NCBI RefSeq assembly: GCF_022811685.1
Contig: NZ_CP094532.1
Coordinates: 521,501 to 585,500 of the forward strand
Direction: 5' to 3'
DNA from: Chryseobacterium suipulveris
Lineage (GTDB): Bacteria; Bacteroidota; Bacteroidia; Flavobacteriales; Weeksellaceae
DNA length: 64,000 bases
The position numbers were made by a program, and so were the translations under genes. A model generated the notes under the pieces. It searched no databases and had not been told where the DNA came from. It saw only the letters and a list, made by a program, of their open reading frames with translations. Shown here one piece after another: positions 10,327 to 64,000 of the stretch (positions within the stretch are counted from its first letter, which is position 1; every line of letters begins with the position of its first letter).

Positions 10327-10489
10327 GTTTCAAGTTCCAACGTGGATAAACTCACTCGAAGAAATTCACAGCTCCGTGAATTCACTATTGACATTTTCCC
10401 GCTCCAATTCACCAACTCACCCACACACCAACACAAAAATTGCCGCCCAGCTTCCGACTTTTCATTATCTTCGCAGCCAGAAACAAGAC

Positions 10490-13762: not shown

Positions 13763-16471
13763 ATGAAAGAATTTCAACAGCTGCAAAATAAGTTCGCTAT
13801 AAGCAGCATTTTGACCAGGAAAACAATTTTCTTTGTTTTTCTATTGGTCTCATTTTTTACATTTGCCCAAAGTGCCGGTGATTTCAGAACTAAGGTTCCA
13901 CAGTCTGCAAGCCAGAACTGGATTACCGTTTCTGCTTGGGAGACCTTTAATGGGACTTCTTGGGTGCCTGCAACGCAATATCCTGGTCAAACCTCTGGAA
14001 ACTATAAAGTAACGGTTTCTGCGCAGACTTCAATTTTTACATCACTCCCGACGATCAGTATTGGAACCCTTGTTATTGAGGGTTTTCTTCAGATTGATGC
14101 AGATCTTACTTTGCCAACTACGTCAGTATTGCAAATTAACGCCGGAACATTGTATCTGAACGGAAAGAAAAGACAGGTTCGCTTAGCGGCGAATACCAAA
14201 ATTGAGATCACCGGATATACCGGAACCAACGGAATTCAATCTTCGGACTGTAATAATAATGTTGCCGTTTTTATCGGATCTGTGAAATATGCTGCTTGTA
14301 CCGGAAGCGGAAATACCACGGTGGGTGATTTTTCAACGATCAACGAAAATGGAGGATCGCTTAAGGCGGAACCTCTTGCAACGCCCAATGCAATCTGCTC
14401 AGGAGAAAGCGTAAATATCACTGCAACTGCAAATACTGTTACGGACTTAACCTATAAATGGCAGGTTGTGAGTGCGCCACCAGGATACAGTTTACCTAGT
14501 GGAAATTCAACTGCACAGTTTTTGGGAACGATGGTGCTTACACTTCCGGGTACCTACACATTCCGTTATACGGTGAGCAAAAACTCAACTTCGGTATCGG
14601 GAGACGTTACCATTCAGGTGTATGCAAAACCAGATGCCGGAACTATCAGCGGAGTTAATCTGTGCAGCAAATATGGTAATAACACTGTAACACTTACCGG
14701 ACACACCGGAAATATCGTAAAGTGGCAGTCGTCGCCAACTTCGGATTTCAGCAGCGGTGTTGTAGATATTGCGGAAACAGCAAGTCAGATCCATATCGGT
14801 AGTCTTCAGCAAAATTTATTTTACCGTGCTTTAATTGCCAACGGTACTTGCAGCGTTTTCTCGCCGGTTGCCGCGGTAACAGTAAGTGCAACGGCTTTCG
14901 AAGGTAATCAGTGGAGTAACGGGCTTCCTGATATTACCAAAAGAATCGTGATCTATAACGATTATTCTTTTTCCGGAGATGTGCAGGGTTGTGCATTGGA
15001 AGTAGTTTCAGGAGCGAAAGTTACCGTTCCCGGAAACAGCAGCTTGACCTTGGACGGTGAAATTGAAGTTATTTCAGGTACTTTTACAGTGGACAGTGAC
15101 GCAGGGTTGATTCAGAAAAATGACAATGCTCAAAATACTGGGAATATCACTGTAAAAAGACAGTCCAGAATGAAGCGTCTTGATTACACGTTGTGGGGAG
15201 CTCCGGTTGCTCAGCAGAACTTGTTCGGTTTTTCACCGCAAACTTTGACCAACCGATTTTATCTTTACAATGAGACCGATGATACTTTTAATACCAACGG
15301 ACTTACCAGCTCAACGGTATTCGTTCCGGGGAAAGGTTATGTAGTTCGGTCACCAAATAATTTTCCTTCAACGTACAGCGAAACCAGCTCGGCAAACCTG
15401 TTTACCGGCGTATTCACAGGGAAGCCAAATAACGGGGCTTATTCGGTAACGCTTCAAAAACTGGGACAGGGCTTTAATTTGGTAGGAAATCCGTACCCGT
15501 CGAATATCGATTTTGACCAACTGTATCAGCAAAACAGTGCAGCAATTGAAAGCACTGCCTATTTTTGGACCTATGTGAACTCGGCCGATCCAAATGGGAA
15601 CTATGTAGCCAACAACTATGCACAGTATGTGGGTGGAACCGGGAATCCTGCCACCAACGGAACCCAGGTTCCAACCAATATCATCAAAACCGGACAGGGA
15701 TTTTTCGTACTGGCAAAAACTGATGGTGCTGTTTTGCACTTTAACAACAATATAAGAACAGAAAGGAAAACCGGTATCTTCTTCAATGTAGCGCATCGTG
15801 GCGTTTCTGCAGCTAAAGACCGGTTCTGGCTTAAACTCACCTCACCATTGGGCAACAGCAATTCTTTAGCAATTGTTTATACAGAGGGTGCAAAAGACCA
15901 GTTTGATGCTGAATATGACGGCAAGTTACGTATCATCGGTTCTGATTCCTTCTATTCTGTTGTCGATGAACACAAATTGGCAATCCAGGGAAGAAGCTAC
16001 CCGCTTAAGCAGGACGACAAGGTGCAGATTGGGTTTGTAGCTTATCAGGACGGAATTCACACGGTATCGCTCGCCGGTAAAGAAGGAATTTTTAATGACG
16101 GTAATCCGGTGTATCTTCATGATAAAGTTACAGGCGTTTACAAAAATTTGCAGGAAGGGGATTATCAGTTCTCCGCTGAAAAAGGTTCCAACGATACCCG
16201 TTTCGAGATTGTTTATCTGGACAAAAATGTGCTTTCTGTAAATCCGGGGGCAAGAGAAGATATAATCATCTATAAAGACGGAGCAGATGTAGTCGTGAAG
16301 TCATCTGAGAAAATAGTTGAGGTTCAGCTTTATGACCTTTCGGGGAAACTGGTCTACCGTTCAAATGCAAACGGTAATGAGTTACGGGTAGAAAATCGAT
16401 CAGCCCCAGGTGTTTTTATCCTGAAAGTGTTTCAAAAAGGAAAAATCACCGTGAAGAAAGTGAGAAACTAA
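13763..16471 (+). CDS. T9SS-secreted surface protein with type A sorting domain
   Basis: This 902-residue protein has a cytoplasmic lead of about 20 residues, then a signal peptide ending FFTFAQ. A beta-rich N-terminal half holds a PKD/Ig-like stretch (about 210-290). A region shared with the next gene begins MKRLDYTLWGAPV and includes GFNLVGNPYPSNIDFDQLY. The last 75 residues (VQLYDLSGKLVYRS to VKKVRN) are a typical T9SS type A C-terminal signal. By family knowledge it crosses the outer membrane by T9SS and is surface-attached or released. Ligand or substrate is unknown. Confidence 0.88.
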   Translation: MKEFQQLQNKFAISSILTRKTIFFVFLLVSFFTFAQSAGDFRTKVPQSASQNWITVSAWETFNGTSWVPATQYPGQTSGNYKVTVSAQTSIFTSLPTISIGTLVIEGFLQIDADLTLPTTSVLQINAGTLYLNGKKRQVRLAANTKIEITGYTGTNGIQSSDCNNNVAVFIGSVKYAACTGSGNTTVGDFSTINENGGSLKAEPLATPNAICSGESVNITATANTVTDLTYKWQVVSAPPGYSLPSGNSTAQFLGTMVLTLPGTYTFRYTVSKNSTSVSGDVTIQVYAKPDAGTISGVNLCSKYGNNTVTLTGHTGNIVKWQSSPTSDFSSGVVDIAETASQIHIGSLQQNLFYRALIANGTCSVFSPVAAVTVSATAFEGNQWSNGLPDITKRIVIYNDYSFSGDVQGCALEVVSGAKVTVPGNSSLTLDGEIEVISGTFTVDSDAGLIQKNDNAQNTGNITVKRQSRMKRLDYTLWGAPVAQQNLFGFSPQTLTNRFYLYNETDDTFNTNGLTSSTVFVPGKGYVVRSPNNFPSTYSETSSANLFTGVFTGKPNNGAYSVTLQKLGQGFNLVGNPYPSNIDFDQLYQQNSAAIESTAYFWTYVNSADPNGNYVANNYAQYVGGTGNPATNGTQVPTNIIKTGQGFFVLAKTDGAVLHFNNNIRTERKTGIFFNVAHRGVSAAKDRFWLKLTSPLGNSNSLAIVYTEGAKDQFDAEYDGKLRIIGSDSFYSVVDEHKLAIQGRSYPLKQDDKVQIGFVAYQDGIHTVSLAGKEGIFNDGNPVYLHDKVTGVYKNLQEGDYQFSAEKGSNDTRFEIVYLDKNVLSVNPGAREDIIIYKDGADVVVKSSEKIVEVQLYDLSGKLVYRSNANGNELRVENRSAPGVFILKVFQKGKITVKKVRN

Positions 16472-49853: not shown

Positions 49854-50231
49854 ATGATGAAAAGAGTGACTCTCGTAATCATAATGATGATTTCAACACT
49901 TGGCTTATTCTCTTTCAAGAATAATGCCACAGATGCCAAAAAAACAAGTTTTGCATCGTACTACCACGATAAATTCAACGGTAGAAAAACAGCAAGCGGA
50001 GAAATTTTCAGTAACAAGAAATTGACCGCAGCTCACAGATCGCTTCCTTTTGGGACTGAAATTTTAGTAACCAACCTTAGAACGGGGAAAAGCGTGGAAG
50101 TAAGAATCAATGACCGAGGTCCTTTCCATTCTTCCAGAGTACTCGATCTTTCGAAGGCAGCGTACAAAGCAATCGGTGATCCTGCAAGGGGAACAATGCC
50201 GGTTGAATTTGAAATTGTCGAAAACGATTAA
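49854..50231 (+). CDS. RlpA-like double-psi beta-barrel protein
   Basis: This 125-residue exported protein has a signal peptide (MMKRVTLVIIMMISTLGLFS) and a single DPBB domain: SYYHDKFNGRKTASGEIFS, LPFGTEILVTNLRTGKSV and the conserved RINDRGPFHSSRVLDLS. It lacks the SPOR domain of full-length RlpA, so it is a minimal form. RlpA proteins act on denuded peptidoglycan strands; enzymatic activity here is not shown. It is monocistronic with its own terminator. Confidence 0.9.
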   Translation: MMKRVTLVIIMMISTLGLFSFKNNATDAKKTSFASYYHDKFNGRKTASGEIFSNKKLTAAHRSLPFGTEILVTNLRTGKSVEVRINDRGPFHSSRVLDLSKAAYKAIGDPARGTMPVEFEIVEND

Positions 50232-50253
50232 GATTTATAAAAAATTTATGTAG

Positions 50254-50282
50254 CGCCAAACCTAATAGTTTGGCGTTTTTTT
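50254..50282 (+). terminator. Rho-independent terminator
   Basis: CGCCAAAC (50254-50261) pairs perfectly with GTTTGGCG (50268-50275) over a 6-base loop, followed by seven T. It ends the RlpA-like transcript. Confidence 0.93.
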
Positions 50283-50298
50283 GTGCGCATCTGTCAAT

Positions 50299-50379: not shown

Positions 50380-52278
50380 ATGAGTAAAATAATTGGAATC
50401 GATTTAGGTACAACCAACTCCTGCGTCGCAGTAATGGAGGGTAAAGATCCGGTTGTAATTCCTAACGCGGAAGGTAAAAGAACAACTCCTTCCATCGTCG
50501 CATTCACTGAAGACGGCGAAAGAAAAGTGGGTGATCCCGCAAAAAGACAGGCGGTAACCAACCCGACCAAAACCGTTTATTCCATCAAGAGATTTATCGG
50601 TACGCACTTTAAAGATGATGCTGCAGAAATCACGAGAGTTCCATACAAAGTGGTTTCGGGACCGAATGACACGGTAAAAGTAAAAATTGACGACAGAGAA
50701 TATACTCCACAGGAAATCTCTGCAATGATTCTTCAGAAAATGAAGAAAACTGCTGAAGACTATCTTGGTCAGGAAGTAACCAAAGCGGTAATCACAGTTC
50801 CGGCTTACTTTAATGACTCGCAAAGACAGGCAACCAAAGAAGCAGGTGAAATCGCAGGTCTGAAAGTGGAGAGAATCATCAACGAACCTACTGCAGCAGC
50901 TTTGGCTTACGGCTTGGATAAAAACCATAAAGACCAGAAAATCGCGGTTTACGACTTAGGTGGTGGTACTTTCGATATCTCGATCCTGGATTTGGGTGAC
51001 GGAGTTTTCGAAGTATTGTCAACAAACGGTGACACTCACCTTGGTGGTGACGATTTCGACGATGTGATCATCAACTGGCTTGCTGATGAATTTAAATCTG
51101 AAGAAGGTGTAGATCTGAAAGCTGATCCAATCGCGCTTCAAAGATTGAAAGAAGCAGCGGAAAAAGCAAAAATCGAATTGTCATCTTCAGCACAGACTGA
51201 AATCAACCTTCCATATATCACCGCGACTGCAACAGGTCCGAAACACTTGGTTAAGCAATTATCAAAGGCAAAATTCGAGCAACTTTCTGCTGATTTGGTG
51301 AGAAGATCAATGGAGCCGTGCAAAAAAGCTTTGTCTGATGCAGGACTTCAAGCATCTGATATCGACGAGGTAATTTTGGTGGGAGGTTCTACCAGAATCC
51401 CGATCATCCAGGAGGAAGTGGAAAAATTCTTCGGTAAAAAACCTTCAAAAGGAGTAAATCCAGATGAGGTTGTAGCAATCGGTGCCGCAATTCAGGGTGG
51501 AGTTTTAACAGGTGACGTAAAAGATGTGTTGCTTCTCGACGTAACTCCGCTTTCATTAGGTATTGAAACAATGGGTTCTGTTTTCACCAAATTAATTGAT
51601 GCAAACACTACTATTCCAACTAAGAAATCTGAGGTGTTCTCAACCGCTTCCGACAATCAACCTGCTGTAAGCATCAGAGTTGGACAGGGAGAAAGACCGA
51701 TGTTTAATGACAACAAGGAAATCGGAAGATTCGATTTGACCGATATTCCACCTGCACCGAGAGGAGTTCCGCAAATTGAGGTAACTTTCGATATCGATGC
51801 CAACGGAATCCTAAGTGTTTCCGCTAAAGATAAAGGAACCGGAAAAGAGCAGTCGATCAAGATTCAGGCAAGTTCAGGACTTTCTGATGCCGAAATTGAA
51901 AGAATGAAGCGTGAAGCTGAAGAAAACTCTGCAGCCGACGCTAAGAAAAAAGAGGAAGTTGAAATCTTCAACAAAGCAGATGGGCTTATTTTCCAAACTG
52001 AAAAACAGTTGAAGGAATTTGGCGACAAACTTTCGGCCGACAAAAAAGCAGCGATCGAATCTGCAGCAGCAGAACTGAAAACCGCTTTCGAAGCCAAAGA
52101 CATCGAATCCGTAAAAACCAAAACTGAAGCACTCGACGCAGCTTGGATGGCGGCATCTGAAGAGCTTTACGCACAAGGACAGCAAGCGCAGGGAGCTGCA
52201 GACGCAGGTCAGCAAAACCCGGGCGGAAACGCAGACGCAGAAGATGTGCAGGATGCAGATTTTGAAGAAGTAAAATAA
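50380..52278 (+). CDS. dnaK: Chaperone DnaK (Hsp70)
   Basis: This 632-residue protein is complete: the N-terminal [20 protein letters not shown], the nucleotide-binding domain with [16 protein letters not shown] and [13 protein letters not shown], the linker [18 protein letters not shown], the substrate-binding domain and lid, and an Ala/Gln/Gly-rich tail ending [11 protein letters not shown]. It folds and protects cytosolic proteins with DnaJ and GrpE, which are not nearby. Two diverged dnaK 3' segments recur at the right end of the window. Confidence 0.97.
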
Positions 52279-52310
52279 GGATCGATTAAAACCGATTAAT
52301 AATAATTATA

Positions 52311-52348
52311 AAAACGCTGTAAGCTACTAGTTTACAGCGTTTTTTTTG
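52311..52348 (+). terminator. dnaK terminator
   Basis: ACGCTGTAA (52314-52322) pairs with TTACAGCGT (52332-52340), extended by A-T pairs and followed by a T run. A near copy recurs at 63126-63165. Confidence 0.93.
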
Positions 52349-52422
52349 TTTTTTAAATCGTTTACAGAATTTTTTTCAGATTAAAAAAAAATTAGGGATA
52401 AATATTTTTCTAAAGGTGATGC

Positions 52423-53325
52423 CTACTTTACCACATTTTTCAACGCTTGATGAAGCTCATTATATTTAAAAATAAAACCTTTTGATTTAATTTTTTGGTT
52501 GCTGGCATTTACTCCGTTTAGAATTATTTCGCTCATTTCACCCATGGTAAATTTCAAAACCACGGCAGGAACTGCCATGGGAATGTAATTTTTATCCATC
52601 GATTTCGCTAAAGTTTTCATTAATTGTGCATTTGTCGGAATTTCGTCTGCACAGGCGTTGAAGGACCCATTCATGTTTTCATTTTCAAGAGCGAATAATA
52701 ACATAGAAACCAAATCGTTCACATGGATCCACGGAAAATACTGCTTACCGCTACCAACTGGTGAAGCAAGATGAAGATTGGTTAATTTTTTTAAAGGTTC
52801 CAGAAATCCACCATGGGCGGAAATTACAGGAGAAATTCTAAGTTTTACAATTCTTTCCGAAATTGCTTCGAACCGGTTTGCGGATTCTTCCCACAAGCCA
52901 CAAACTTCCGTAAGAAAATCTTTTTTTTGCGGTTCATCATTTTCCGTAGCAGCTTTTTCATCGTTCCAGTCACCGTAATAATTAATTCCTGAAGCCGAAA
53001 TAAATGACTGTAGTATAATATTTTTTTCTTTTACCTTTTTCTCTAAAAACAGGGCAGAATCCACGCGGGAACTGATGATTTCCTTCTTGTATGCCGTAGT
53101 CCACCGTTTCGCAATTGTTGCGCCTGCCAAGTGTATGATGCTATGAATACCCTCTAGAGCACCTTCTTCCAAATAGTCATTTTCATAATTCCAGACAAAT
53201 TCATGTTCGAAAATGTTTTGTTTTTTTCTCACCACGCAATGTGCAGTATAACCTCTTTCCTTAAGCGCAGAATACAATTTTTTTCCTATCATTCCGCTAG
53301 CTCCCGTGATTAAAATTTTTTTCAT
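52423..53325 (-). CDS. TIGR01777 family NAD(P)-dependent epimerase
   Basis: This 300-residue SDR has the start MKKILITGASGMIGKKLYSA with the GASGMIG dinucleotide motif, the VWNYENDYLEEGALEGI loop and IIHLAGATIAKRWT typical of YfcH/TIGR01777 proteins, plus a DUF1731-like end (NQKIKSKGFIFKYNELHQAL). The reaction of the family is not established. It is the last gene of the minus-strand unit divergent from the crt genes. Confidence 0.9.
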   Translation of the reverse strand: MKKILITGASGMIGKKLYSALKERGYTAHCVVRKKQNIFEHEFVWNYENDYLEEGALEGIHSIIHLAGATIAKRWTTAYKKEIISSRVDSALFLEKKVKEKNIILQSFISASGINYYGDWNDEKAATENDEPQKKDFLTEVCGLWEESANRFEAISERIVKLRISPVISAHGGFLEPLKKLTNLHLASPVGSGKQYFPWIHVNDLVSMLLFALENENMNGSFNACADEIPTNAQLMKTLAKSMDKNYIPMAVPAVVLKFTMGEMSEIILNGVNASNQKIKSKGFIFKYNELHQALKNVVK

Positions 53326-53352
53326 TTTAATTTTTTTTAATGTGGTGGAGAT

Positions 53353-53997
53353 TTAGATTAAATTATTAATTTCCGTAATGTCAGAATCCTTATATTGGTG
53401 ATAGACATTAAAATGAAATTCGTTTAATTTTTTTAAAGTTTTAAGTAAACTATTCTTTTCTTCAATATCTAATTTTGCAGATAAAACTCTGGAAGTGATG
53501 CTTACAGCTTCAACGGATTGATCAAAGTACTTTTTGCCAAGTTCGGAAATTTTCAATCGGGTTACCCGCTTATCTTTGCTGTCCGAAATTTCCTCCAGCA
53601 GTTTGTTTTTCACTAATCTTCTAATGATTTCCATTCCTGTCTGCTTTTCATGGGCATTCTTTTCTACCAGTTGCATTTTGGTTAGCATAGGTTCGTCCAT
53701 AATTCTGTAGAGGTAGGTAAACTCTTCGTTGTATAATTCCGGAAAATCTTGCAGACCTCTGCGAATCATCTGTTTTGTAAAACGAGACAACAGGATGACT
53801 TGCTTGGCAATTTCATTTTCTAAATCGTTGACCTTCTTTTGCTCACTCTCCGAGATAAATCGTGGACTTTGACTTCTGTAATACTTGTTATTTAAAAAAT
53901 TACGAAAATCTTCAATGGTGGAACTGTTTTTAGAACTTCCGGAATTTTCAAATTCTTGAACTTCTAAAAGTAAATTGATAAAAAAATTGGTATTCAT
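53353..53997 (-). CDS. MarR-family transcriptional regulator
   Basis: This 214-residue protein has a winged-helix domain in its second half (EPMLTKMQLVEKNAHEKQTG, IIRRLVKNKLLEEISDSKDK, RVTRLKISELGKKYFDQS). The N-terminal 60 residues are an extension beyond the core MarR size. It follows the flavin reductase gene by 2 bp. It may sense redox or aromatic ligands, but this is unknown. Confidence 0.82.
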   Translation of the reverse strand: MNTNFFINLLLEVQEFENSGSSKNSSTIEDFRNFLNNKYYRSQSPRFISESEQKKVNDLENEIAKQVILLSRFTKQMIRRGLQDFPELYNEEFTYLYRIMDEPMLTKMQLVEKNAHEKQTGMEIIRRLVKNKLLEEISDSKDKRVTRLKISELGKKYFDQSVEAVSITSRVLSAKLDIEEKNSLLKTLKKLNEFHFNVYHQYKDSDITEINNLI

Positions 53998-53999
53998 GA

Positions 54000-54629
54000 T
54001 TAAGAGATTAAAATTTGAGGTTCTGAATTGGGTTTTGCATAAGACAACTTTCCAATTTTTTCCGGTACATAATACGTATCCAACCCGGAATTCATCATTG
54101 TATTTTCTAGGTTTACAAATCCGTCTTTCTCTAAACGGGAAGGCTCAATAAACACATTTTGGATTTCGCCGATAATTAAATCCGTGTTGTTTTGTTTTAT
54201 AGTGATTTTTTCCAGAAATTTCATTCCTATTTTTACCGACGCTTCTTTCACAAAAACAAACTGATTTTCAAAGATTTCCTCCTGGAAACCGCATTCCTTA
54301 AATTCGGATTGATTTTTAGGATATCGTGCAGAGGTTTGATGCGCATTTTTTATAAAATGCTCAGTAACAAAATTAAAAGTATAGTGATTAGTTTCCAAAA
54401 TATTCTCCAAGGTATGCCGTTCGACGGTGTGTGGACGAGAAATATAGCCAAATAACGAAGGTTCTGCACCTATATGGATGACCGAATTAATGATGGATAA
54501 ATTAGATTGCCTATTTTTATCCATTGTTCCTACCAAAGCAACTTGCCTAATGCCCGCAAGCGAGTTAATTAGTATTGTTCTATATCTTTTATCTAAATTA
54601 TTTAAATCATTGCCGGAAATCTGAATCAT
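54000..54629 (-). CDS. Flavin reductase-like protein (FMN-binding split barrel)
   Basis: This 209-residue protein has the flavin-reductase-like pattern: VALVGTMDKNRQSNLSIINS, then GAEPSLFGYISRPHTVERHT and LENILETNHYTFNFV. Such proteins bind FMN and reduce it or pass electrons. It overlaps the upstream TIGR03643 gene by 4 bp. A link to light or redox responses is suggested only by its neighbours. Confidence 0.87.
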   Translation of the reverse strand: MIQISGNDLNNLDKRYRTILINSLAGIRQVALVGTMDKNRQSNLSIINSVIHIGAEPSLFGYISRPHTVERHTLENILETNHYTFNFVTEHFIKNAHQTSARYPKNQSEFKECGFQEEIFENQFVFVKEASVKIGMKFLEKITIKQNNTDLIIGEIQNVFIEPSRLEKDGFVNLENTMMNSGLDTYYVPEKIGKLSYAKPNSEPQILIS

Positions 54630-54901
54630 CGTTTTGATATTTTATTTAATGAAATGCTGCGTTGTCTTGAGCACTTGAATCTGCTGATTTCAGGATTTCT
54701 TTTCCTGAGGTGTTTTTGGCTGACTCCCGAGTTCACCCGCTTTCTCCACATTCGAAAAGAACTCGGTTTCAGGTGCTTTCGCATCAGCTTGATCACATCG
54801 GATTCCGAGAGCTTAAACTGATAGACGATGGCTTCGAAAGGAGTTCTATCTTCCCAAGCCATTTCTATGATCCTGTCTATTTGTTTTTGTTCTATAATCA
54901 T
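54626..54901 (-). CDS. TIGR03643 family protein
   Basis: This 91-residue basic protein has a helix-turn-helix-like core (IDRIIEMAWEDRTPFEAIVY, QFKLSESDVIKLMRKHL, KPSSFRMWRKRV). That core marks the TIGR03643 family, which is often found beside cryptochrome/photolyase genes. The function is unknown. The C-terminal tail is rich in Lys, Arg and Ser. Confidence 0.85.
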   Translation of the reverse strand: MIIEQKQIDRIIEMAWEDRTPFEAIVYQFKLSESDVIKLMRKHLKPSSFRMWRKRVNSGVSQKHLRKRNPEISRFKCSRQRSISLNKISKR

Positions 54902-54908
54902 AGCATTT

Positions 54909-55052
54909 TTAGGAGATGTTTACATTCTTATTCCTTCTGCACTTTTCGCTGCAATACTTCACTTCGTCCCACACTTTTTGCCATTTTTTGCGCCAACTGA
55001 ATGGTCTGTTGCAAACAGCGCAAACTTTCATGGGTAATTCGGATTTCTTCAT
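54909..55052 (-). CDS. DUF2256 zinc-ribbon-like protein
   Basis: The minus-strand ATG at 55052 (MKKSELPMKVCAVC) gives 47 residues; the longer frame overlaps the kinase gene. CAVC and CSEKC motifs (Cys11, Cys14, Cys34, Cys38) with the FSWRKKWQKVWDEVKYCSEK core are the DUF2256 signature. The family co-occurs with photolyase/cryptochrome genes. It lies 7 bp after the ABC1 kinase and 7 bp before TIGR03643. Confidence 0.88.
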   Translation of the reverse strand: MKKSELPMKVCAVCNRPFSWRKKWQKVWDEVKYCSEKCRRNKNVNIS

Positions 55053-55059
55053 TAAGACA

Positions 55060-56385
55060 TTAAATGGTAACCAAAGAAATCGTTTGCCACTGATTGATCT
55101 CAATATCCTTTGCTTTCAAATCATGCAGCATATTGTAAAGACCGAAAAATGTTCTGTTCATATAAATAAAATGTCTGGATCCGCGGTTGGTATTCATGTT
55201 TCTCAGTTCATTCATTTTTGAATATTTTTGGCCCAGTTCTGCAATTTGAGCAAAAAAGATCTCGTCCGAAAAATCAAAGGTTTCTTGATTAAAGGGTTTT
55301 GTAAACAAGCGCAGCATTTCATGAAACAATTCACCGAAAAACTGCTTTTCTTCCACACTATCTTTCTCGAGCAAAATTTCTAATTCATACAATTTTTTAA
55401 TAAAATATTCCTGATTATTCAGGTTTTCTTCTTTTGCCAATTCGAAATAGGGTACATAAAAATCATTGGGAATTTCTTTGATACAGCCGAAATCGATTAC
55501 TTGGAGCTCGTCTTTAGCCGAAATCAGGAAATTTCCCGGGTGAGGATCTGCGTGCACTTTTCTCAGGTGGTGCAGTTGGTACATATAAAAATTCCACAAC
55601 GTTTGTCCAATTTTATCACGCTGCTCCTGGCTGGGATTTGTTGAAATATATTCAGAGAAATGCAATCCGTGCATCCAATCCATTGTAATCACTCTTTCAG
55701 AGGAAAATTCTGGATAGTATTTCGGAAATTTAAGGTTGGGTAAATGTTTACATGCTGCTGCGATTTCTTGGCTTTGTTTGATTTCCAACTCATAATCGGT
55801 TTCCTCATAAAGTTTTTCTTCTACTTCATTAAAATAAGATTCTGAACCTTCTTTTTGAATGTTGAACATTCTCATCGCAATAGGTTTAACCATTTTTAAG
55901 TCGGTAGAAATACTTTCCCGTACTCCCGGATACTGGATTTTCACAGCCAATTCTTTTCCTCCTTTTTTCGCTTTATGCACTTGCCCGATACTTGCTGCGT
56001 TCACGGATTCGGCAGAAAATACATCAAAAAGGTCTTCAGGATTTTTCCCAAAATATTTTCTGAACGATTTTTTGACCAGTGCTCCGGAAAGTGGCGGAAC
56101 AGAAAATTGTGATAAAGAAAACTTCTCTACATATTGCTGTGGCATAATGCTCTTTTCCATGCTCAGCATTTGTGCAACTTTTAGCGCAGAGCCTTTCAAT
56201 TCTTTTAGGCTGTCATAGATATCAGCAGCATTATCTTCGTGTAGAATTTGCTTGGCTTGGTCTTCGTCTTTGGTGATTTTGTTGCCGTAATATTTTATAT
56301 AATTTACCCCTACTTTGGCACCTGCTTTTAGCAAGTTTGTAGTACGTTCTATTTTTCCTGTCGGTATTTTATTCAGCGTTTTCAT
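55060..56385 (-). CDS. ABC1/AarF/UbiB atypical kinase
   Basis: This 441-residue protein has UbiB-family marks: the KGSALKVAQMLSM helix (KxGQ-like), the Ala-rich loop NAASIGQVHKAKKGGKELAV with the ATP lysine, the catalytic HADPHPGNFLI and the metal motif VIDFG. The family supports ubiquinone or isoprenoid metabolism; members near carotenoid genes are known, but the substrate is unknown. It follows the TetR gene by 16 bp. Confidence 0.92.
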   Translation of the reverse strand: MKTLNKIPTGKIERTTNLLKAGAKVGVNYIKYYGNKITKDEDQAKQILHEDNAADIYDSLKELKGSALKVAQMLSMEKSIMPQQYVEKFSLSQFSVPPLSGALVKKSFRKYFGKNPEDLFDVFSAESVNAASIGQVHKAKKGGKELAVKIQYPGVRESISTDLKMVKPIAMRMFNIQKEGSESYFNEVEEKLYEETDYELEIKQSQEIAAACKHLPNLKFPKYYPEFSSERVITMDWMHGLHFSEYISTNPSQEQRDKIGQTLWNFYMYQLHHLRKVHADPHPGNFLISAKDELQVIDFGCIKEIPNDFYVPYFELAKEENLNNQEYFIKKLYELEILLEKDSVEEKQFFGELFHEMLRLFTKPFNQETFDFSDEIFFAQIAELGQKYSKMNELRNMNTNRGSRHFIYMNRTFFGLYNMLHDLKAKDIEINQWQTISLVTI

Positions 56386-56401
56386 TGTCGATGGATTTTG
56401 T

Positions 56402-57055
56402 TTACTTCCCGAATTTTTCTTTATAAAGAAATTTACCTAAATCAATAAATTTTCGAATGGGTTCGTTGTCGATCAATTCAAAACCAGTATCAATTGTTTT
56501 TTCAATGTAGAGGTCGGTTTTCTCAAACTGAGGCGACTGGTCGTTTTTCCAAAATTCGATTATTGATATAAAATGCAGCCAAAGAATCTCTTCACGATAC
56601 TTGTCGTTCCATCTTTGTAAATCTTTTGAAACCTTTTTTAATAGTTCTAACTCCTCAAAATGCAAAGTTTCCACAAATTGCTTGTGCAAATTTTTCAGCG
56701 ATTGCATCTTTATCATCATCTGCCTTGCATTACCTTTCAGTAATTCTAGGACGAATGAGCGATTTAATGTTAAATTTTCAATAAAAATATAATAGAGATT
56801 CAGCAACTTTTCTTTTGAAGACTGAGATGCGTATCCCTCCGCACTGATGCTTAATTCCAGCGATTTCTCAAATAAAATTTTCAGGTAATCTCGCTCGATG
56901 GCTTCAAAGTTTCCATAATATTTATAAAATTCTTGCTCTGTGGTGTTTAAATCTTTAGCAAATTGGTAAATATTTTTTGGACGCTCGCCATGAATCAAAA
57001 TATAGTCAGAATAAGCTTCGATAATGCTGTCTTTTGTGATTGTTTGTGTTTTCAT
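56402..57055 (-). CDS. TetR/AcrR-type transcriptional regulator
   Basis: This 217-residue protein has an N-terminal HTH (SIIEAYSDYILIHGERPKNI, YQFAKDLNTTEQEFYKYYGN, FEAIERDYLKILFEKS) and an all-helical C-terminal domain. It is transcribed divergently from crtI with an 80-bp shared control region holding an 18-bp palindrome. It is probably the local repressor of the crt genes and of itself; the ligand is unknown. Confidence 0.85.
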   Translation of the reverse strand: MKTQTITKDSIIEAYSDYILIHGERPKNIYQFAKDLNTTEQEFYKYYGNFEAIERDYLKILFEKSLELSISAEGYASQSSKEKLLNLYYIFIENLTLNRSFVLELLKGNARQMMIKMQSLKNLHKQFVETLHFEELELLKKVSKDLQRWNDKYREEILWLHFISIIEFWKNDQSPQFEKTDLYIEKTIDTGFELIDNEPIRKFIDLGKFLYKEKFGK

Positions 57056-57075
57056 TTTATAGGTGATTTATTTAT

Positions 57076-57093
57076 TTGTAAAATATTGTACAA
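57076..57093. promoter_or_regulatory. Palindromic operator between the TetR gene and crtI
   Basis: TTGTAAAATATTGTACAA has the symmetric form TTGTA-NN-ATAT-NN-TACAA. It covers the crtI -33 TTG (57086-57088) and touches the -7 element of the divergent gene (57091-57098). Binding by the adjacent TetR-type protein is inferred. Confidence 0.7.
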
Positions 57094-57118
57094 ATATAAA
57101 AATAAAAGTATATATTTG
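57086..57118 (+). promoter_or_regulatory. crtI promoter TTG-N22-TATATTTG
   Basis: TTG at 57086-57088 and TATATTTG at 57111-57118 have 22-bp spacing. The ATG of crtI follows 17 bases later. The TTG lies inside the palindrome. Confidence 0.7.
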
Positions 57119-57123
57119 GACAA
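57091..57123 (-). promoter_or_regulatory. Divergent promoter of the regulator unit, TTG-N22-TATATTTG
   Basis: On the minus strand TTG is at 57123-57121 and TATATTTG at 57098-57091, again 22 bp apart. The two promoters overlap almost completely and mirror each other, so occupancy of one should affect the other. Confidence 0.65.
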
Positions 57124-57135
57124 TTATTTTTACTC

Positions 57136-58599
57136 ATGAAAAAAGCTATAATTATTGGGTCCGGTTTTTCATCTTTGTCTGCAGCGTGCTACCTGGCAAA
57201 AGCTGGACTTAATGTAAATGTTTTAGAAAAAAATGAACAGTTGGGAGGAAGGGCTTCCATGATGGAGATAGATGAATTCAAATTCGATATGGGACCGAGT
57301 TGGTATTGGATGCCTGATGTTTTCGAACGTTTTTTTGCAGATTTTGGTAAAAGCGTATCAGAATATTATACGCTTGAAAAACTTTCTCCGGCCTACCGAG
57401 TGGTTTTTGGTAAAAATGATTTCATTGATATAGAAGATACACCAGAAAAAATTATCCAAACTTTTGAAAATATTGAAAAAGGTTCGGGAAAGCATCTGAA
57501 AAGATTTATGAGTGAATCCCAAGAGAATTATAATATCGCTATGAAGGATTTGGTTTATCAGCCAGGGCTTTCAGTAACGGAATTGGTGTCATGGGAAACA
57601 GCAACGCGATTAGGTCTCTTCGTGAAAAATATCAGTCAGCAAATCCGAAAAAATATTAAGAATCCAAAACTGAGAAGTATTTTGGAATTTCCCGTCCTGT
57701 TTTTGGGCGCGAAACCAAAGGATACACCCGCTTTTTATAATTTTATGAATTATGCAGACTTTGGTTTGGGAACTTGGTATCCGAAAGGCGGTTTTAATGC
57801 CGTTGCTTTAGGGATGGTGAAGCTGGCCAAGGAATTAGGTGTGGATTTCAAGACCAATGCTGCGGTGCAGTCTATACAGACAGAAAAAGGTAAGGTAGTG
57901 AGTGTTTCTACGGAAAAAGAAACCTTCGCTGCCGATGTTTTCGTATCGGGAGCGGATTATGCCCACACTGAAAATCTACTTAAAAATAACAGAAACTACA
58001 GAGAAGAATCTTGGAAAAAGAAAACTTTTGCTCCCAGCTCTTTGCTTTATTATGTTGCTTTTGATAAGAAAGTTGAAACTTTGGAACATCATAATCTATT
58101 TTTTGACACCGATTTTGAACAGCACGCTGAGGAAATTTACGACACAATGACCTTCCCGAAAGCGCCTTTGTTCTACGCTAATTTTTCCAGCAAAACGGAC
58201 AGCTCCCTTTGTCCGGAAGATAAAGAAATTGGTTTTTTCCTTATTCCTATTGCGGTGGATTTAGAAGATTCGGAAGAGATCCATGAGCATTATTTTAATT
58301 TAATCTTAGATAGGATTAAGAATTCAACCGGTGAAGATCTGAGGCCGAAGATTTTATTCAAAAAAAGTTTTGGAACCCAAGATTTCAAAAATCGCTATAA
58401 TTCTTGTCGGGGGAACGCTTATGGTTTAGCGAATACCTTAATGCAAACATCTGTGCTAAGACCCTCCATAAGAAATAAAAAATTAGATAATTTCTTTTAT
58501 ACAGGTCAGTTAACCGTGCCTGGTCCTGGGGTACCACCCGCATTAATTTCCGGAAAGGTAGTAAGTGAATATATTTTAAGCAAAGGAAAGTTTAATTAA
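57136..58599 (+). CDS. crtI: Phytoene desaturase CrtI
   Basis: This 487-residue flavoprotein has the N-terminal dinucleotide motif IIIGSGFSSLSAACYLAKAG, then EKNEQLGGRA, and DMGPSWYWMPDVFERFFADF. The C-terminal carotenoid-oxidoreductase signature is FFYTGQLTVPGPGVPPALIS. It introduces double bases in phytoene to give lycopene. It heads the crt operon and starts 14 bp before crtB. Confidence 0.96.
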   Translation: MKKAIIIGSGFSSLSAACYLAKAGLNVNVLEKNEQLGGRASMMEIDEFKFDMGPSWYWMPDVFERFFADFGKSVSEYYTLEKLSPAYRVVFGKNDFIDIEDTPEKIIQTFENIEKGSGKHLKRFMSESQENYNIAMKDLVYQPGLSVTELVSWETATRLGLFVKNISQQIRKNIKNPKLRSILEFPVLFLGAKPKDTPAFYNFMNYADFGLGTWYPKGGFNAVALGMVKLAKELGVDFKTNAAVQSIQTEKGKVVSVSTEKETFAADVFVSGADYAHTENLLKNNRNYREESWKKKTFAPSSLLYYVAFDKKVETLEHHNLFFDTDFEQHAEEIYDTMTFPKAPLFYANFSSKTDSSLCPEDKEIGFFLIPIAVDLEDSEEIHEHYFNLILDRIKNSTGEDLRPKILFKKSFGTQDFKNRYNSCRGNAYGLANTLMQTSVLRPSIRNKKLDNFFYTGQLTVPGPGVPPALISGKVVSEYILSKGKFN

Positions 58600-58613
58600 T
58601 AAAGAATATCATT

Positions 58614-59459
58614 ATGAATAATTTTCAAAAATTCAATAAAATTTCAGATTGTACTTCTCAGTTGGTAACTAAACAGTACAGCACTTCTTTTTACTGGGCA
58701 TCTTCGTTATTTAGTCGGGAAATTCGTCAGCATATTTATAATATTTACGGTTTCGTAAGGTTTGCTGATGAAATAGTGGATACCTTCCATGATTATGATA
58801 AGCAGAAATTGCTTAATGAGTTCGAAAGAAATTATAGAGAAACTTTGGAAAACGGAATTTCAATTAATCCTGTGATTCAGTCATTCTGCAGAACTCAAAA
58901 AGAAAATAATATTCCGCAGGATTTGGTTGATGCATTTCTATATTCCATGAAAATGGATTTAGGCGAGATTAAAGATTTGAATGATGAATTGTATAATCTC
59001 TACATTTATGGAAGCGCAGAAGTAGTGGGATTAATGTGTTTAAAAGTCTTTGTGAAAACGCAGGAGGACTACGAAAAAATGAAACCTTATGCACAAAGTC
59101 TGGGTGCAGCTTTTCAAAAAATCAATTTTCTTAGGGATATTTCCGCTGATTACAACGATTTGAATCGCACCTATTTCCCCAATGTGAATTTTCTGGATTT
59201 TTCCGAAAGAGAAAAAGCAGAAATAGAATTAAATATTAAGAGTGATTTTGAAAAGGCGCTCATCGGGATCAAAATGCTTCCTTTATCAAGCAGAAGTGCA
59301 GTTTTTATGGCGTACAAGTATTACATCAGTCTTTTCAAGAAAATTAAAAAACAGCGTGCAGAAACTTTAATGAAAAGTAGAATCCGTGTTTCTAATGCAA
59401 GGAAAATTTATCTGATGGGAGAAATGCTTCTAACAAAGAATTTATACTTTATTCGATGA
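58614..59459 (+). CDS. crtB: Phytoene synthase CrtB
   Basis: This 281-residue squalene/phytoene synthase family protein has the first Asp-rich motif RFADEIVD (Asp52, Asp56) and the second NFLRDISADYNDLNRTYFP (Asp175, Asp179), which bind Mg-diphosphate. It condenses two geranylgeranyl diphosphates to phytoene. It overlaps the next small gene by 4 bp. Confidence 0.96.
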   Translation: MNNFQKFNKISDCTSQLVTKQYSTSFYWASSLFSREIRQHIYNIYGFVRFADEIVDTFHDYDKQKLLNEFERNYRETLENGISINPVIQSFCRTQKENNIPQDLVDAFLYSMKMDLGEIKDLNDELYNLYIYGSAEVVGLMCLKVFVKTQEDYEKMKPYAQSLGAAFQKINFLRDISADYNDLNRTYFPNVNFLDFSEREKAEIELNIKSDFEKALIGIKMLPLSSRSAVFMAYKYYISLFKKIKKQRAETLMKSRIRVSNARKIYLMGEMLLTKNLYFIR

Positions 59460-59911
59460 AATTTTTGATCATAATTTTTACGCTGATGTGCAATATTATT
59501 TTTGCTCAAAACCTTAAAGAGCTGAGAAATTATTTAATTAAAGGTGAAAAATCTTCAGCTGCAGCAATACAATTAATGGAAAAGTCTGAGGCGCTTTTTA
59601 AACAAAATAAATTGCCTATTTACCAAGGTTTTTACAGTGTCGGACAATTTTTCATGGCAAAACATGCTGCCAATCCTTTTAAAAAATTATCTTATTTTAA
59701 AGAAGGAAAAAAAACATAAATAATGCAATTAGCAGCGATTCTTAAAAATTTGGGATTAAGATTGTTCAGACTGATGACCCAAGAACAGGCACCAGCTTTT
59801 CTGAATTATACCGATAATATTAAAGAAGATCGCTCATTTATTTTGAAAAATTATGAAAATACAACGGACGAAGATTTGAAAATTTTCATTAAAAAATATT
59901 TAAAAAAATGA
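59456..59911 (+). pseudogene. Frameshifted small exported protein gene within the crt operon
   Basis: The first part (87 codons) encodes a signal peptide (MKFLIIIFTLMCNIIFAQ) and ends with a TAA at 59717-59719; the same frame resumes as NLGLRLFRLMTQEQAPAFLN and runs to 59911. Between them a shifted frame reads KKNINNAISSDS. So an A lost from the 8-A run near 59707-59714 and an extra T near 59752 would explain both breaks, giving one protein of about 151 residues. The second half overlaps crtZ by 4 bp. Function is unknown. Sequencing error is possible. Confidence 0.75.
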
Positions 59912-60375
59912 TTCTACTATATTTGGCAATCACAGCAGTTACTTTTGTAGCAATGGAAGGCATCACATGGCTAACCCACAAATACATCATGCATGGACTT
60001 CTCGGCTGGTATTTTCATGAAGATCATCATCAACCTGGCTATCCACACGATTTCGAGAAGAATGATTTTTTCTTTGTGGTTTTTGCTATTCCTTGTATGA
60101 TCTTGTTTTATTTCGGCACTGTGGGCGGAATTACTTGGTTAGCGTTTTTAGCAGCGGGAGTTTTGCTCTACGGAATTTGCTACTTTTTGGTCCATGATGT
60201 ACTGATACACCGAAGATTCAAATGGTTTGATAAAGTGGACCACTGGTACTTCCGAGGGTTGAGAAAAGGACATAAAATTCACCACAAACATTTGGGAAAA
60301 GAAGATGGCGAATGTTTCGGAATGCTATACGTACCCAAAAAATATTTTATTGAAGCCAGAAAAATGCGTAAATAG
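59908..60375 (+). CDS. crtZ: Beta-carotene hydroxylase CrtZ
   Basis: This 155-residue membrane protein of the fatty acid hydroxylase superfamily has the di-iron histidine boxes HKYIMH (24-29), HEDHH (37-41), HDVLIH and HKIHHKH. It hydroxylates beta-carotene rings at C3 to give zeaxanthin. It follows the frameshifted gene with a 4-bp overlap. Confidence 0.94.
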   Translation: MILLYLAITAVTFVAMEGITWLTHKYIMHGLLGWYFHEDHHQPGYPHDFEKNDFFFVVFAIPCMILFYFGTVGGITWLAFLAAGVLLYGICYFLVHDVLIHRRFKWFDKVDHWYFRGLRKGHKIHHKHLGKEDGECFGMLYVPKKYFIEARKMRK

Positions 60376-60436
60376 TTGATCTTGATTTTTTGTTGGACTT
60401 TTTACATTAATCATTAACGATGTACTAACCATTATT

Positions 60437-61171
60437 ATGGAGAAATATTACTATATCCTTTTGAATATCGCGACATTTTCAGTGCCGTTTTTTTTTAGTT
60501 TTGAAAAGAAGTGGATGCATTTTGCGCGATTTTGGAAACCATATTTTCTAGCAATTATCAGCGTTGGGTTATTCTTTATTATTTGGGATATCTTCTTTGC
60601 ATATTCCGATATTTGGGGTTTCAACGATCAATATTTATTAGGATTTAGAATATTTAAATTGCCTATTGAGGAATGGATGTTCTTTCTTCTCATTCCTTAT
60701 TCCAGTAATTTTATCCATTACTCACTGGAATATTTCTTTCCAAGATTACAGTTAAGTATAATAGCTACGCAGATCATCAGCATCGCGCTACTCATAATTT
60801 CATTGGGCGTTGTGCTGAGTAATTATGATCGATTGTACACCTTATGCAGTTTCGGCTTATTTGCCTTGCTCATGTTGGCCCAAATCATCTATCAGTGGAA
60901 ATACGCCCGACGTTTTTATCTAAGTTTTATCCTGATTTACGTGCCATTTTATTTTGTGAATGGCGCTTTGACGGGAAGTTATTCGGCAAATCCCGTAGTT
61001 TATTATGATAATGCTGAAAATCTTGGAATTCGTGTGGGAACTATGCCACTGGAGGATTCTTTCTATTGTTTTTCGATGCTTTATAGCAGCGTACTGCTTT
61101 TTGAATTTTTAAAGAAAAAAATGAATTTAGATCAACCGATTAGAATCAATCATGGACATAAAAATAACTAA
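60437..61171 (+). CDS. Lycopene cyclase, CrtYcd type
   Basis: This 244-residue protein has about seven membrane segments and two copies of the lycopene cyclase domain: KLPIEEWMFFLLIPYSSNFIH and MPLEDSFYCFSMLYSS, each with an acidic pair (PIEEW, PLED). It combines the c and d halves in one polypeptide, as in Flavobacteriia. It cyclises lycopene to beta-carotene. It overlaps the next gene by 20 bp. Confidence 0.9.
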   Translation: MEKYYYILLNIATFSVPFFFSFEKKWMHFARFWKPYFLAIISVGLFFIIWDIFFAYSDIWGFNDQYLLGFRIFKLPIEEWMFFLLIPYSSNFIHYSLEYFFPRLQLSIIATQIISIALLIISLGVVLSNYDRLYTLCSFGLFALLMLAQIIYQWKYARRFYLSFILIYVPFYFVNGALTGSYSANPVVYYDNAENLGIRVGTMPLEDSFYCFSMLYSSVLLFEFLKKKMNLDQPIRINHGHKNN

Positions 61172-61643
61172 ACAATCTGGCATTTATACCTTAACTTCTA
61201 GACAGGTTTTGCCAATGCCCCTGGAAAAAGCATGGGCATTTTTCTCTTTACCACAAAATTTGGACAAAATTACCCCAGATGATATGGCGTTTTCCATCAC
61301 CAATAATCCACCAAACTATACCTACCAAGGACAAATTATTACCTATAAAATAGGGATTTTTCCTTTGATTAAAAATAATTGGGTAACGGAAATTACGCAC
61401 CTGAAAGAAGGTGAGTTTTTTGTAGACGAACAACGTTTCGGGCCTTATGCGATGTGGCACCACGAACACCATTTTGAAGAACTAGAAGATGGAAAAGTTC
61501 TCATGACGGACATTGTTAATTTCAAATTACCGATGGGATTTGTTGGCGATTTGGTAGCGGGATTTTTTGTGAAAAACAAAGTGAGAAAAATTTTTGAAAG
61601 TAGATTCAAAATTTTGGGAGATTTATTTCCCGCCAACAGTTAG
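61152..61643 (+). CDS. SRPBCC-family ligand-binding protein
   Basis: This 163-residue soluble protein has the START/SRPBCC opening RQVLPMPLEKAWAFFSLPQN with LDKITPDDM and the later block MWHHEHHFEELEDGKVLMTD. Such proteins bind hydrophobic ligands in a large pocket. Close relatives are commonly located between lycopene cyclase and photolyase genes. A carotenoid or flavin ligand is speculation. Confidence 0.85.
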   Translation: MDIKITKQSGIYTLTSRQVLPMPLEKAWAFFSLPQNLDKITPDDMAFSITNNPPNYTYQGQIITYKIGIFPLIKNNWVTEITHLKEGEFFVDEQRFGPYAMWHHEHHFEELEDGKVLMTDIVNFKLPMGFVGDLVAGFFVKNKVRKIFESRFKILGDLFPANS

Positions 61644-61682
61644 AAAGCGAACGTCAATACCACAATATAAAATCCAGTTTTA

Positions 61683-62978
61683 ATGAAAATCAATATATTC
61701 TGGTTCAGAAGAGATTTACGTTTAGATGATAATCATGGGCTGTATCAGGCATTATCCCAAGATTTAAAAGTAGTTCCCATCTTTATCTTCGATCAGCAAA
61801 TTCTTACTCAACTTTCCGATAAGAAAGATAAGCGGGTTCAATTTATTTACGAGGCAATTGAAAGGTTAAACAAAAAATTAGCAAAGGTGGGTTCTGGAGT
61901 TGATCTCTATTATGGCAACCCAAAGGAAGTTTTCGAAAAAATTATTAAAAAGTATGATGTTCATTCCGTTTTCACGAACGAAGATTATGAACCGTATGCG
62001 CTGAGAAGAGACGGAGAAATTCATGAATTTCTACAATCTAAAAACATTGAATTTAAAACTTTTAAAGATCAAGTCATTTTCGCACCACAGGAAGTTTTAA
62101 AGATAGATGGGCAGCCGTTTCAGGTGTACAGTCCGTATGCTAAACAATGGGAATCGCAATTACCTGAAAATTTAGAAGAGTATAAATCAGAAGATTTATT
62201 AGATCATTTTTTTCAATTTACGCCCAATCATTTGACGCTGAAAGATATTGGTTTTGAAAATTCAGGAGAAATTTTTCAAAAGCCCAGTTTAAGTGAGGAT
62301 GTCCTGAAACAATATGGTGAAAAAAGAAATTTCCCCGCAGCAGATGCAACTTCAAAAGTGTCCGTCCATTTGAGGTTTGGAACAGTAGGAATTCGAAAAT
62401 TGGTAAATTATGCCAAGAAAAATAGTAATAAATTCCTTCGGGAATTGATCTGGAGAGAATTTTTTATGATGTTGCTGTACCATTTTCCACATACCGTCAC
62501 CAAATCTTTCAAGCCAAAATACGATGACGTGAAATGGGAATTCGACGAAGATAAGTTTAAAAAATGGTGCGAAGGAAAAACAGGTTTTCCATTGGTGGAT
62601 GCAGGGATGAGAGAGCTTAATGAAACTGGTTTCATGCACAACCGAGTTCGCATGCTCGTAGCAAGTTTTTTAATCAAAGATTTGCATATTGATTGGAAGA
62701 TCGGGGAGGCATACTTTGCCAATAAATTGTTAGATTATGATCAGGCGCAAAATATTGGAAACTGGCAATGGGTAGCAGGTTCAGGTGCAGATGGTTCACC
62801 CTATTTTAGAGTTTTTAATCCATATCTGCAACAGGAGAAATTTGACAAAAATTTCACCTACATAAAAAAATGGATTCCCGAATATGGAACAGCAGAATAT
62901 CCAAAGGAAATGGTTAACCACGATGAGGAAAGAAAAAAAGCCATCGAGTATTATAAAGATGCCTTAAACAGTGATTAA
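61683..62978 (+). CDS. phrB: Deoxyribodipyrimidine photolyase (class I)
   Basis: This 431-residue protein starts MKINIFWFRRDLRLDDNHGL, the photolyase N-terminal motif. The FAD domain has VSVHLRFGTVGIRKLV, LRELIWREFFMMLLYHFP, and the signature HNRVRMLVASFLIKDLHIDW with NIGNWQWVAGSGADGSPYFR. It repairs pyrimidine dimers using blue light. It closes the crt unit, matching the TIGR03643/DUF2256 partners in the divergent unit. Confidence 0.95.
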   Translation: MKINIFWFRRDLRLDDNHGLYQALSQDLKVVPIFIFDQQILTQLSDKKDKRVQFIYEAIERLNKKLAKVGSGVDLYYGNPKEVFEKIIKKYDVHSVFTNEDYEPYALRRDGEIHEFLQSKNIEFKTFKDQVIFAPQEVLKIDGQPFQVYSPYAKQWESQLPENLEEYKSEDLLDHFFQFTPNHLTLKDIGFENSGEIFQKPSLSEDVLKQYGEKRNFPAADATSKVSVHLRFGTVGIRKLVNYAKKNSNKFLRELIWREFFMMLLYHFPHTVTKSFKPKYDDVKWEFDEDKFKKWCEGKTGFPLVDAGMRELNETGFMHNRVRMLVASFLIKDLHIDWKIGEAYFANKLLDYDQAQNIGNWQWVAGSGADGSPYFRVFNPYLQQEKFDKNFTYIKKWIPEYGTAEYPKEMVNHDEERKKAIEYYKDALNSD

Positions 62979-63034: not shown

Positions 63035-63108
63035 GTGTCAATCTCAAGGTCAAGCAAACAGTGCAGACGATGTACAAGATGCAGACTTCGAAGATATAAT
63101 TCAATAAT
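63035..63108 (+). pseudogene. Remnant of a dnaK 3' end
   Basis: The frame reads [20 protein letters not shown] then IIQ-stop, matching the DnaK tail (QGQQAQG ... DVQDADFEE). Downstream, GATCGATTAA and a run of similar sequence continue into a terminator like that of dnaK. Sequence before about 63030 shows no dnaK match. It marks the right border of the 52.4-63 kb island. Confidence 0.8.
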
Positions 63109-63125
63109 GAATTAAGATCGATTAA

Positions 63126-63168
63126 TAATGATCATAAAAACGCTGTAAGCTATTAGTTTACAGCGTCT
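63126..63168 (+). terminator. Copy of the dnaK terminator
   Basis: ACGCTGTAA pairs with TTACAGCGT as in the terminator at 52311-52348; only scattered bases differ in the loop (TATTAG against TACTAG) and T tract (one C). Confidence 0.88.
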
Positions 63169-63271
63169 TTTTTTGTTTTGAAGCTTACCGACTCCCTTTA
63201 ATAGTCGTTTTCAATTGTTTTACCTTTAAAAAACTTCCTAATATTCCATAATCATTCTTCACGCAAATCTT

Positions 63272-63384: not shown

Positions 63385-64000
63385 ATGAAAAAAAATATAT
63401 TAATCCTATTATTTGCGGTGAACGCGGCTGTTTTTAGGCAGAGTTCCAAGTGGTCGCTTCAGGATTGTATTGATTACGCAATTCAGAACAACATCACCAT
63501 CAAAAAAGCTGAAATCAACAAAAAGACTTCGGAACTGAATCTTCAGCAGTCGAAATACAACAAGCTCCCTTCTGTAACCGGAAACACGAGTTTGAGTCTG
63601 CTGAATGGTTCCAGTGTGGATCCGGTGACCAGTACTTTTAATTCTCAACTTACCACTTCCAACAGTTTCAATGTGAGCTCAAGTCTTACTTTGTATCAAG
63701 GAAACCAGCTGAATCTGAACATTGAGAAAAATAAAATCCTTGTCGATCAGAGCGATTTATACTTGAAAGAAGCTTCCAACAATATTACATTGAGCATAAT
63801 CGAGGCCTACATGCAGGCTTTGTATAATTATGAGGCCATCGAGGTGGCGAGAATTACTTCAAAATCTACGCAGGAAGAGTTGAAGCAGGCGCAAGTTAAA
63901 TATAAAAACGGGGCCATTTCGGTTGAACTCTTCAACAAAGCCGACGGTTTGATTTTCCAAACTGAAAAGCAATTGAAAGAATTTGGCGACAAACTTTCAG
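63385..64000 (+). CDS. TolC-family outer membrane protein 5' part fused in frame to a DnaK segment (runs off window)
   Basis: The ATG at 63385 starts MKKNILILLFAVNAAVF, a signal peptide, then the TolC pattern WSLQDCIDYAIQNNITIKKA and SSLTLYQGNQLNLNIEKNKI up to KQAQVKYKNGAISVE near residue 181. From there the frame reads [20 protein letters not shown] then DKLS, the DnaK lid sequence, to the last base. The matching DnaK stretch ([11 protein letters not shown]...) is at 51960-52040, about 87% identical, with mostly synonymous changes. The signal cleavage region reads FRQSS instead of the usual FAQSS, hinting at decay. The frame has no stop in the window. Confidence 0.8.
   Translation, partial: MKKNILILLFAVNAAVFRQSSKWSLQDCIDYAIQNNITIKKAEINKKTSELNLQQSKYNKLPSVTGNTSLSLLNGSSVDPVTSTFNSQLTTSNSFNVSSSLTLYQGNQLNLNIEKNKILVDQSDLYLKEASNNITLSIIEAYMQALYNYEAIEVARITSKSTQEELKQAQVKYKNGAISVELFNKADGLIFQTEKQLKEFGDKLS

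Follow-up and report, generated by a model that had tools for sequence, protein, structure and literature searches.

Homology-facilitated illegitimate recombination (HFIR) leaves a short microhomology at the join. It has been described for incoming DNA of which one end is homologous to the recipient DNA and the other is not, in three naturally competent species (Streptococcus pneumoniae, Acinetobacter baylyi and Pseudomonas stutzeri); E. coli conjugation shows it at low frequency (PMC3240628). The locus analyzed here shares with these cases a non-homologous join at one end, may share the homologous join at the other, and differs from them in that the process is read from a natural genome sequence alone. 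Integrative mobilizable elements that occupy the 3′ terminus of a host gene are another related type of system. In other Kaistella genomes, about 19 nt of the dnaK end are repeated beyond an element with integrase and relaxase genes, whereas the island next to dnaK in the present genome has no integrase and the displaced dnaK tails are longer. A search of an open-access collection of papers for the dnaK end as a site of integrases or elements found no paper. The host is described here as Kaistella-like, this being the genus to which we infer it to belong. The window, i.e. the whole stretch of DNA that was analyzed, comprises 64,000 nt (G000:C1:521501-585500, with G000 designating the present genome), and its right-hand continuation was read in the segment L003 (G000:C1:570000-589999).

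A fusion of half a tolC gene with the dnaK lid

An ORF scan revealed a reading frame on the plus strand at the right end of the window (63385..>64000) that has no stop codon before the window end. With the genome outside the window included, the frame stops at 64245 and encodes 286 amino acids (L003:14886-15746), of which residues 1-179 are TolC and residues 180-286 are the DnaK lid up to the normal DnaK end. Pfam searches matched OEP (PF02321) to residues 25-198 (E 1.2e-21, profile positions 1-169 of 187) and HSP70 to residues 162-250 (E 3e-7, profile positions 510-598 of 599). The open frame and these two matches confirmed the in-frame TolC-DnaK chimera that a preliminary description had noticed at the window end, and its expectations that a dnaK tail would follow outside the window and that the frame would end like DnaK (DVQDADFEE) were both borne out. 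The tolC-family part (63385..63921, plus strand) is the 5′ part of a gene whose C-terminal half is missing; it is identified by the OEP match, by the intact TolC relative P0001 (437 aa, from a metagenome contig), which is 93% identical to residues 1-179 only, and by a frame-shifted stretch of 98 nt of this gene at the corresponding position in the Kaistella genome G043. The displaced dnaK part (63922..64000, continuing to 64245 outside the window, plus strand) extends from the lid of the substrate-binding domain to the stop codon and is identified by the open frame, its DNA match to dnaK, a tract shared with genome G022 (see below) and the junction. Among the three frames of the lid piece, the fused one alone is open; the other two run into a stop by codon 10.

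The junction lies between residues 179 and 180 (nt 63921/63922), where the identity to P0001 ends, and not after about 181 TolC residues as first proposed. From there, nt 63922-63998 match nt 51958-52034 of the local dnaK over 77 nt with 88% identity, in agreement with the earlier estimate of about 87% to 51957-52036. The chimera shows no resemblance to dnaK 5′ of the join, which is thus a non-homologous one.

Functional TolC proteins contain two OEP repeats. The chimera shares with TolC-family proteins the OEP stretch and an intact relative, but its second half is absent and a single OEP stretch is left. Similarly, it keeps the lid and the end of DnaK but lacks the nucleotide-binding and substrate-binding domains, the HSP70 match being confined to profile positions 510-598. 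Among 120 listed of 2572 matches to public proteins, none covers more than 65% of the chimera, so that no second copy was found there, and a plasmid search gave one weak dnaK match. A closer source of the TolC half within the genus was not found in 320 genomes of the family: 22 of these, including the present one, had a match at E ≤ 1e-30, no other of them being a Kaistella, and the best match among these others was 58% identical. With a looser cut-off, 24 Kaistella genomes yielded homologues of at most 32% identity.

The stop codon at 64245 is followed by a terminator-like hairpin, read from the sequence (L003 about 15767-15803), as had been anticipated, but the full tolC gene that had been thought possible further on was not present in the downstream stretch read (L003). 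Convergent with the chimera, an ORF for an ettA-like ABC-F protein is located on the minus strand (genome 585820-587508; L003:15818-17509). At E ≤ 1e-150, this gene was found in none of the 15 genomes of the same genus tested but in six of nine others of the order. It is followed by two genes that we take to be X331 and ndpA. X331-ndpA directly follow dnaK in two of 20 relatives (G012, G014) and ndpA alone does so in two more (G020, G013), while the stretch read contains no ndpA in 12 of the 20. The displaced lid, having X331-ndpA to its right, therefore occupies the place expected for the end of the resident dnaK. Inside the ndpA-like gene, 189 nt (extended coordinates 67698-67886) are exactly identical to G022 within surroundings of about 76-87% identity, and this run is read as an exchange tract.

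The island next to dnaK and its edges

The intact dnaK gene (50380..52278, plus strand) encodes 632 amino acids, and by trees and AU tests the closest relatives of its lid are not those of its 5′ part (see below). A carotenoid/photolyase island of roughly 11 kb begins at the dnaK stop codon and has the torn tolC as its right end. The horizontally shared part (52423..62978), defined by its ORFs, by the same gene order in K. montana and by its identity to other Kaistella genomes, contains what are presumably genes for a TIGR01777-like epimerase, MarR-like, flavin-reductase-like, ABC1-kinase-like and TetR-like proteins, crtI-, crtB-, crtZ- and lycopene-cyclase-like enzymes, an SRPBCC protein and a photolyase. 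Related islands are present in four other Kaistella genomes, G043, G003, K. montana (G015) and G050. The block adjoins dnaK in K. montana, where it has the same order, and in G043 and G050; in G003, the block and dnaK are on different contigs, and the final 19 nt of dnaK with the terminator stand in front of the block. The flavin-reductase-, ABC1-kinase- and TetR-like genes (54192-56912) are present here and in K. montana and missing from the island in G043, G003 and (54132-56705) G050.

In full 500-nt bins, the island is 90-97% identical to the four genomes with one exception of 84% (K. montana, 54500), and partly covered bins go down to 86%. By comparison, dnaK just left of the island is 80-86% identical to the same genomes. 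The block has thus moved between species after their divergence and has a sharp left edge. The step in identity lies at the very end of dnaK, the match to G003 beginning at 52260 and including the final 19 nt of the gene. DNA comparison therefore places the left end of the island at the last 19 nt of dnaK plus the terminator (52260..52356, plus strand), which is also where mobilizable elements of other Kaistella genomes have their attachment-like repeat.

These elements are marked by a phage-type integrase gene, which begins 801-810 bp beyond the dnaK gene in 11 of the 36 Kaistella genomes (G010, G002, G003, G007, G009, G018, G019, G024, G041, G046 and G049), the present genome being among the 25 without it. 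Eight of the 11 integrase carriers have a relaxase-like gene in the same stretch, and Pfam matches in the copy of G010 (L134:3888-11391 and L194:11605-11703) include an integrase, a relaxase, a NikA-like and a primase-like protein. At least six of the 11 genomes (G003, G010, G018, G019, G041, G046) carry a further copy of the final ~19 nt of dnaK and of the terminator at the far end of the element, a count that is a lower bound with eight candidates scored per genome. To judge from these repeats, the dnaK end is probably the attachment site of a mobilizable element in Kaistella.

At the right edge, the dnaK 3′ ends form a series: the end of the intact gene at 52278, a decayed end that includes a terminator (63037-63182), and the end that is fused to tolC (63922-64245). 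The middle member, a second displaced end that the preliminary description had overlooked, lies within the right end of the island (63037..63182, plus strand) and comprises about 68 nt of decayed coding sequence plus the terminator; nt 63063-63182 are 81% identical to 52237-52356, and the tail is 86% identical over 143 nt to the dnaK tail of K. montana. G043 and G003 also carry it in decayed form. The right end of the shared block differs in all five genomes (near 61673 for G050, 62979 for K. montana, 63077 for G003 and 63482 for G043; 63921 here). The G043 block ends with the decayed dnaK tail and the first, frame-shifted 98 nt of tolC, which implies that tolC and the middle dnaK tail were in the block before it arrived here or moved with it. 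The sequence ACTCATGTATTAAAAT is common to K. montana, G043 and G003, at or near their right edges, and suggests that the K. montana edge is a later deletion. Right ends thus also erode by deletion, and a differing right edge does not always stand for a separate arrival.

Relatives of the two dnaK lids

Over 324 nt, the displaced lid and the local dnaK share 78% identity, and the two are followed by different terminators. Compared with 35 dnaK genes, it was most similar to those of G022 (82%) and G049 (80%), its own genome reaching 78%. This set, which was also used for the trees, represents 36 genomes, with the dnaK of G003 left out as it did not match the start motif used. The first 94 nt of the displaced lid, counted exactly from the junction, are identical to the G022 dnaK; the longest exact run among 296 pairs of dnaK lids of 78-86% identity was 47 nt.

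A tree of the lids (36 rows) grouped the displaced lid with those of G022, G005 and G008 and with the own lid (98/92), while the fork that sets the displaced lid outside the other four was weaker (92/65). The own lid grouped with G008 (98/83) and with G005 plus G008 (100/96). Forcing the two lids of the present genome as sisters was not rejected (p-AU 0.127, or 0.312 without the first 94 nt). For nt 1-1578 of dnaK, grouping the present genome with G008 was rejected (p-AU 0.0017), as was grouping with G005 plus G008 (p 0.027). Since the 5′ part and the lid of the own dnaK disagree on their relatives, this gene is a mosaic. The switch in its history is near nt 1578-1600, close to where the displaced lid starts. 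In our reading of these sequences, the lid of the own dnaK would have been replaced and the displaced lid would be the former resident. A tree of rimO plus rlpA (30 rows) placed the present genome with G016, G005 and G008 (81/82); if this grouping reflects true kinship, it may be the G005/G008-like own lid that was inherited and the displaced lid that was imported. Window positions 1-12000 gave nothing usable as a further probe of kinship.

The neighborhood of rimO and rlpA also showed likely breakpoints of a large inversion, at window positions 50231-50292 and at about 8683-9706 of L206 (G000:C1:2350000-2369999). An exonuclease III-like gene directly follows rimO-rlpA in 18 of 29 relatives, and a cytochrome c gene is located upstream of dnaK in 19 of 24. 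In the present genome, rlpA is the neighbor of dnaK, and the exonuclease gene has the cytochrome pair in its vicinity, which looks like an inversion.

Origin and fate of the fusion

Our best explanation, to which we give roughly even chances, is that the fusion is the scar of a recombination junction at dnaK, left by DNA that was joined by homology at its left end and illegitimately at its right end. The incoming segment would have consisted of a dnaK lid with terminator, the carotenoid/photolyase island, the older, decayed dnaK tail and the 5′ half of tolC. At its left end, ordinary homology inside dnaK would have been used, so that a working dnaK was retained with a new lid. At its right end, the segment would have been joined without long homology, within tolC, to about codon 527 of the resident dnaK, and the lid and stop codon of the latter would have been displaced outwards to become the second half of the chimeric frame. 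The fusion would be in frame by one chance in three. Such a pattern would be the expected residue of HFIR of incoming DNA. Natural transformation might have been the route of entry, and Riemerella is a genus related to Kaistella. One study reported natural transformation in two Riemerella species and found Flavobacterium johnsoniae not competent (PMC7965970). This course of events is supported by the higher identity of the island than of dnaK to the four other carriers, by the differing right ends, by X331-ndpA to the right of the displaced lid, by the mosaic dnaK, by the grouping of the displaced lid with G022, G005, G008 and the own lid, and by the single open frame of the lid piece. Against it speak the rimO-rlpA tree, the weak fork that keeps the displaced lid outside the own lid, the sister grouping of the two lids that was not rejected, the erosion of right ends, and the 94-nt identity to G022, which either needs an extra exchange or means that the fusion was imported ready-made.

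Such a ready-made import is the main rival, which we regard as possible but less favored. The fusion would have been made in a G022-like strain, and the island together with tolC::dnaK-lid would have entered through a pair of homologous crossovers, of which the right one would lie about 94 nt inside the displaced lid, or, as a variant, through one Campbell-type crossover of a circular molecule. This would account for an exact tract that starts at the junction and is twice as long as the maximum of 47 nt among the lid pairs, it fits with the further 189-nt G022 run at 67698-67886, and the rimO-rlpA tree lets the own lid be the inherited one. However, G022 has no island genes at dnaK and no TolC match at E ≤ 1e-30. 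Moreover, the 94-nt tract may predate the junction, as an exchange in the resident dnaK that was later cut by it, and the 189-nt run implies that such exchanges happened here regardless.

Site-specific integration by a tyrosine recombinase at the dnaK 3′ end, which would have placed the island and displaced the dnaK tails, appears unlikely. The integrase genes in 11 of 36 Kaistella genomes, the displaced dnaK end with terminator in six of them and the position of the left edge of the island at the same point as the core repeat agree with it, but a core crossover would displace about 19 nt and not 324 nt and about 68 nt as observed here, no integrase match was found within 20 kb around dnaK, and the right ends differ between the island carriers. 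Integrase action may thus account for the left edge of the island and is disfavored for the tolC join.

The preliminary description had regarded tandem duplication, or an unequal crossover that involved dnaK and a tolC gene downstream of it, as the likely cause of the fusion. We consider a duplication of the own dnaK 3′ end rather improbable: the two ends belong to the same gene, have the same orientation and are 12 kb apart, and their sister grouping was not rejected (p-AU 0.127), but an identity of 78% over 324 nt, the different terminators, the 94 nt identical to the dnaK of another species and, weakly, the position in the lid tree fit poorly with it, as does the origin of the tolC part, which came with the island left of the junction, no full tolC being found downstream. 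An assembly artefact at a repeat, previously named as the main alternative, is hardly credible, for although the junction is known from one assembly only, the displaced lid differs from dnaK, its sole other match in the genome, by 12% (best 77 nt) to 22%, the sequence continues without a break on both sides within a single contig of 3,037,983 bases, and G043 independently shows this arrangement up to the beginning of tolC (98 nt).

The 286-aa protein is probably not used. Half a TolC should be unable to form a normal protomer, and residue 18, presumably near the expected signal cleavage site, is R in the chimera and G in P0001. Relaxed selection on the lid piece was considered and rejected, as its pN/pS of 0.11 over 76 codons is like that of four functional lids (0.11-0.14). 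The piece has seven residues seen in no other row, the highest number, the next being six. As there is no decay in the lid piece, the fusion event may be recent.

A TACCTTTG box ends 25 nt upstream of the chimera start and fits the -7 promoter element TAHHTTTG (PMC6847099). No TTG was present 17-23 nt upstream of this box, i.e. a matching upstream element is lacking, and TAnnTTTG boxes occur 55 times on the same strand of the window. An AlphaFold model of the chimera (15-row alignment) had a mean pLDDT of 59.9 with values of 84-92 in residues 181-250, so that the lid alone is confident. In the model, a single helix spans the join (residues 106-203), and the TolC half is too poor for interpretation. 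It is very doubtful that the frame is made and kept as a periplasmic helical protein of new architecture, in which, as modeled, an exported half-TolC would continue by a coiled-coil helix into the Hsp70 lid.

The locus is a legible record of foreign islands settling at a housekeeping gene, with a working dnaK left behind and other dnaK ends displaced in layers. It indicates that an in-frame chimeric gene can arise as a by-product of the arrival of an island. Since mobilizable elements of other members of the genus also use this site, the dnaK end of Kaistella is well suited for studying how islands are acquired.
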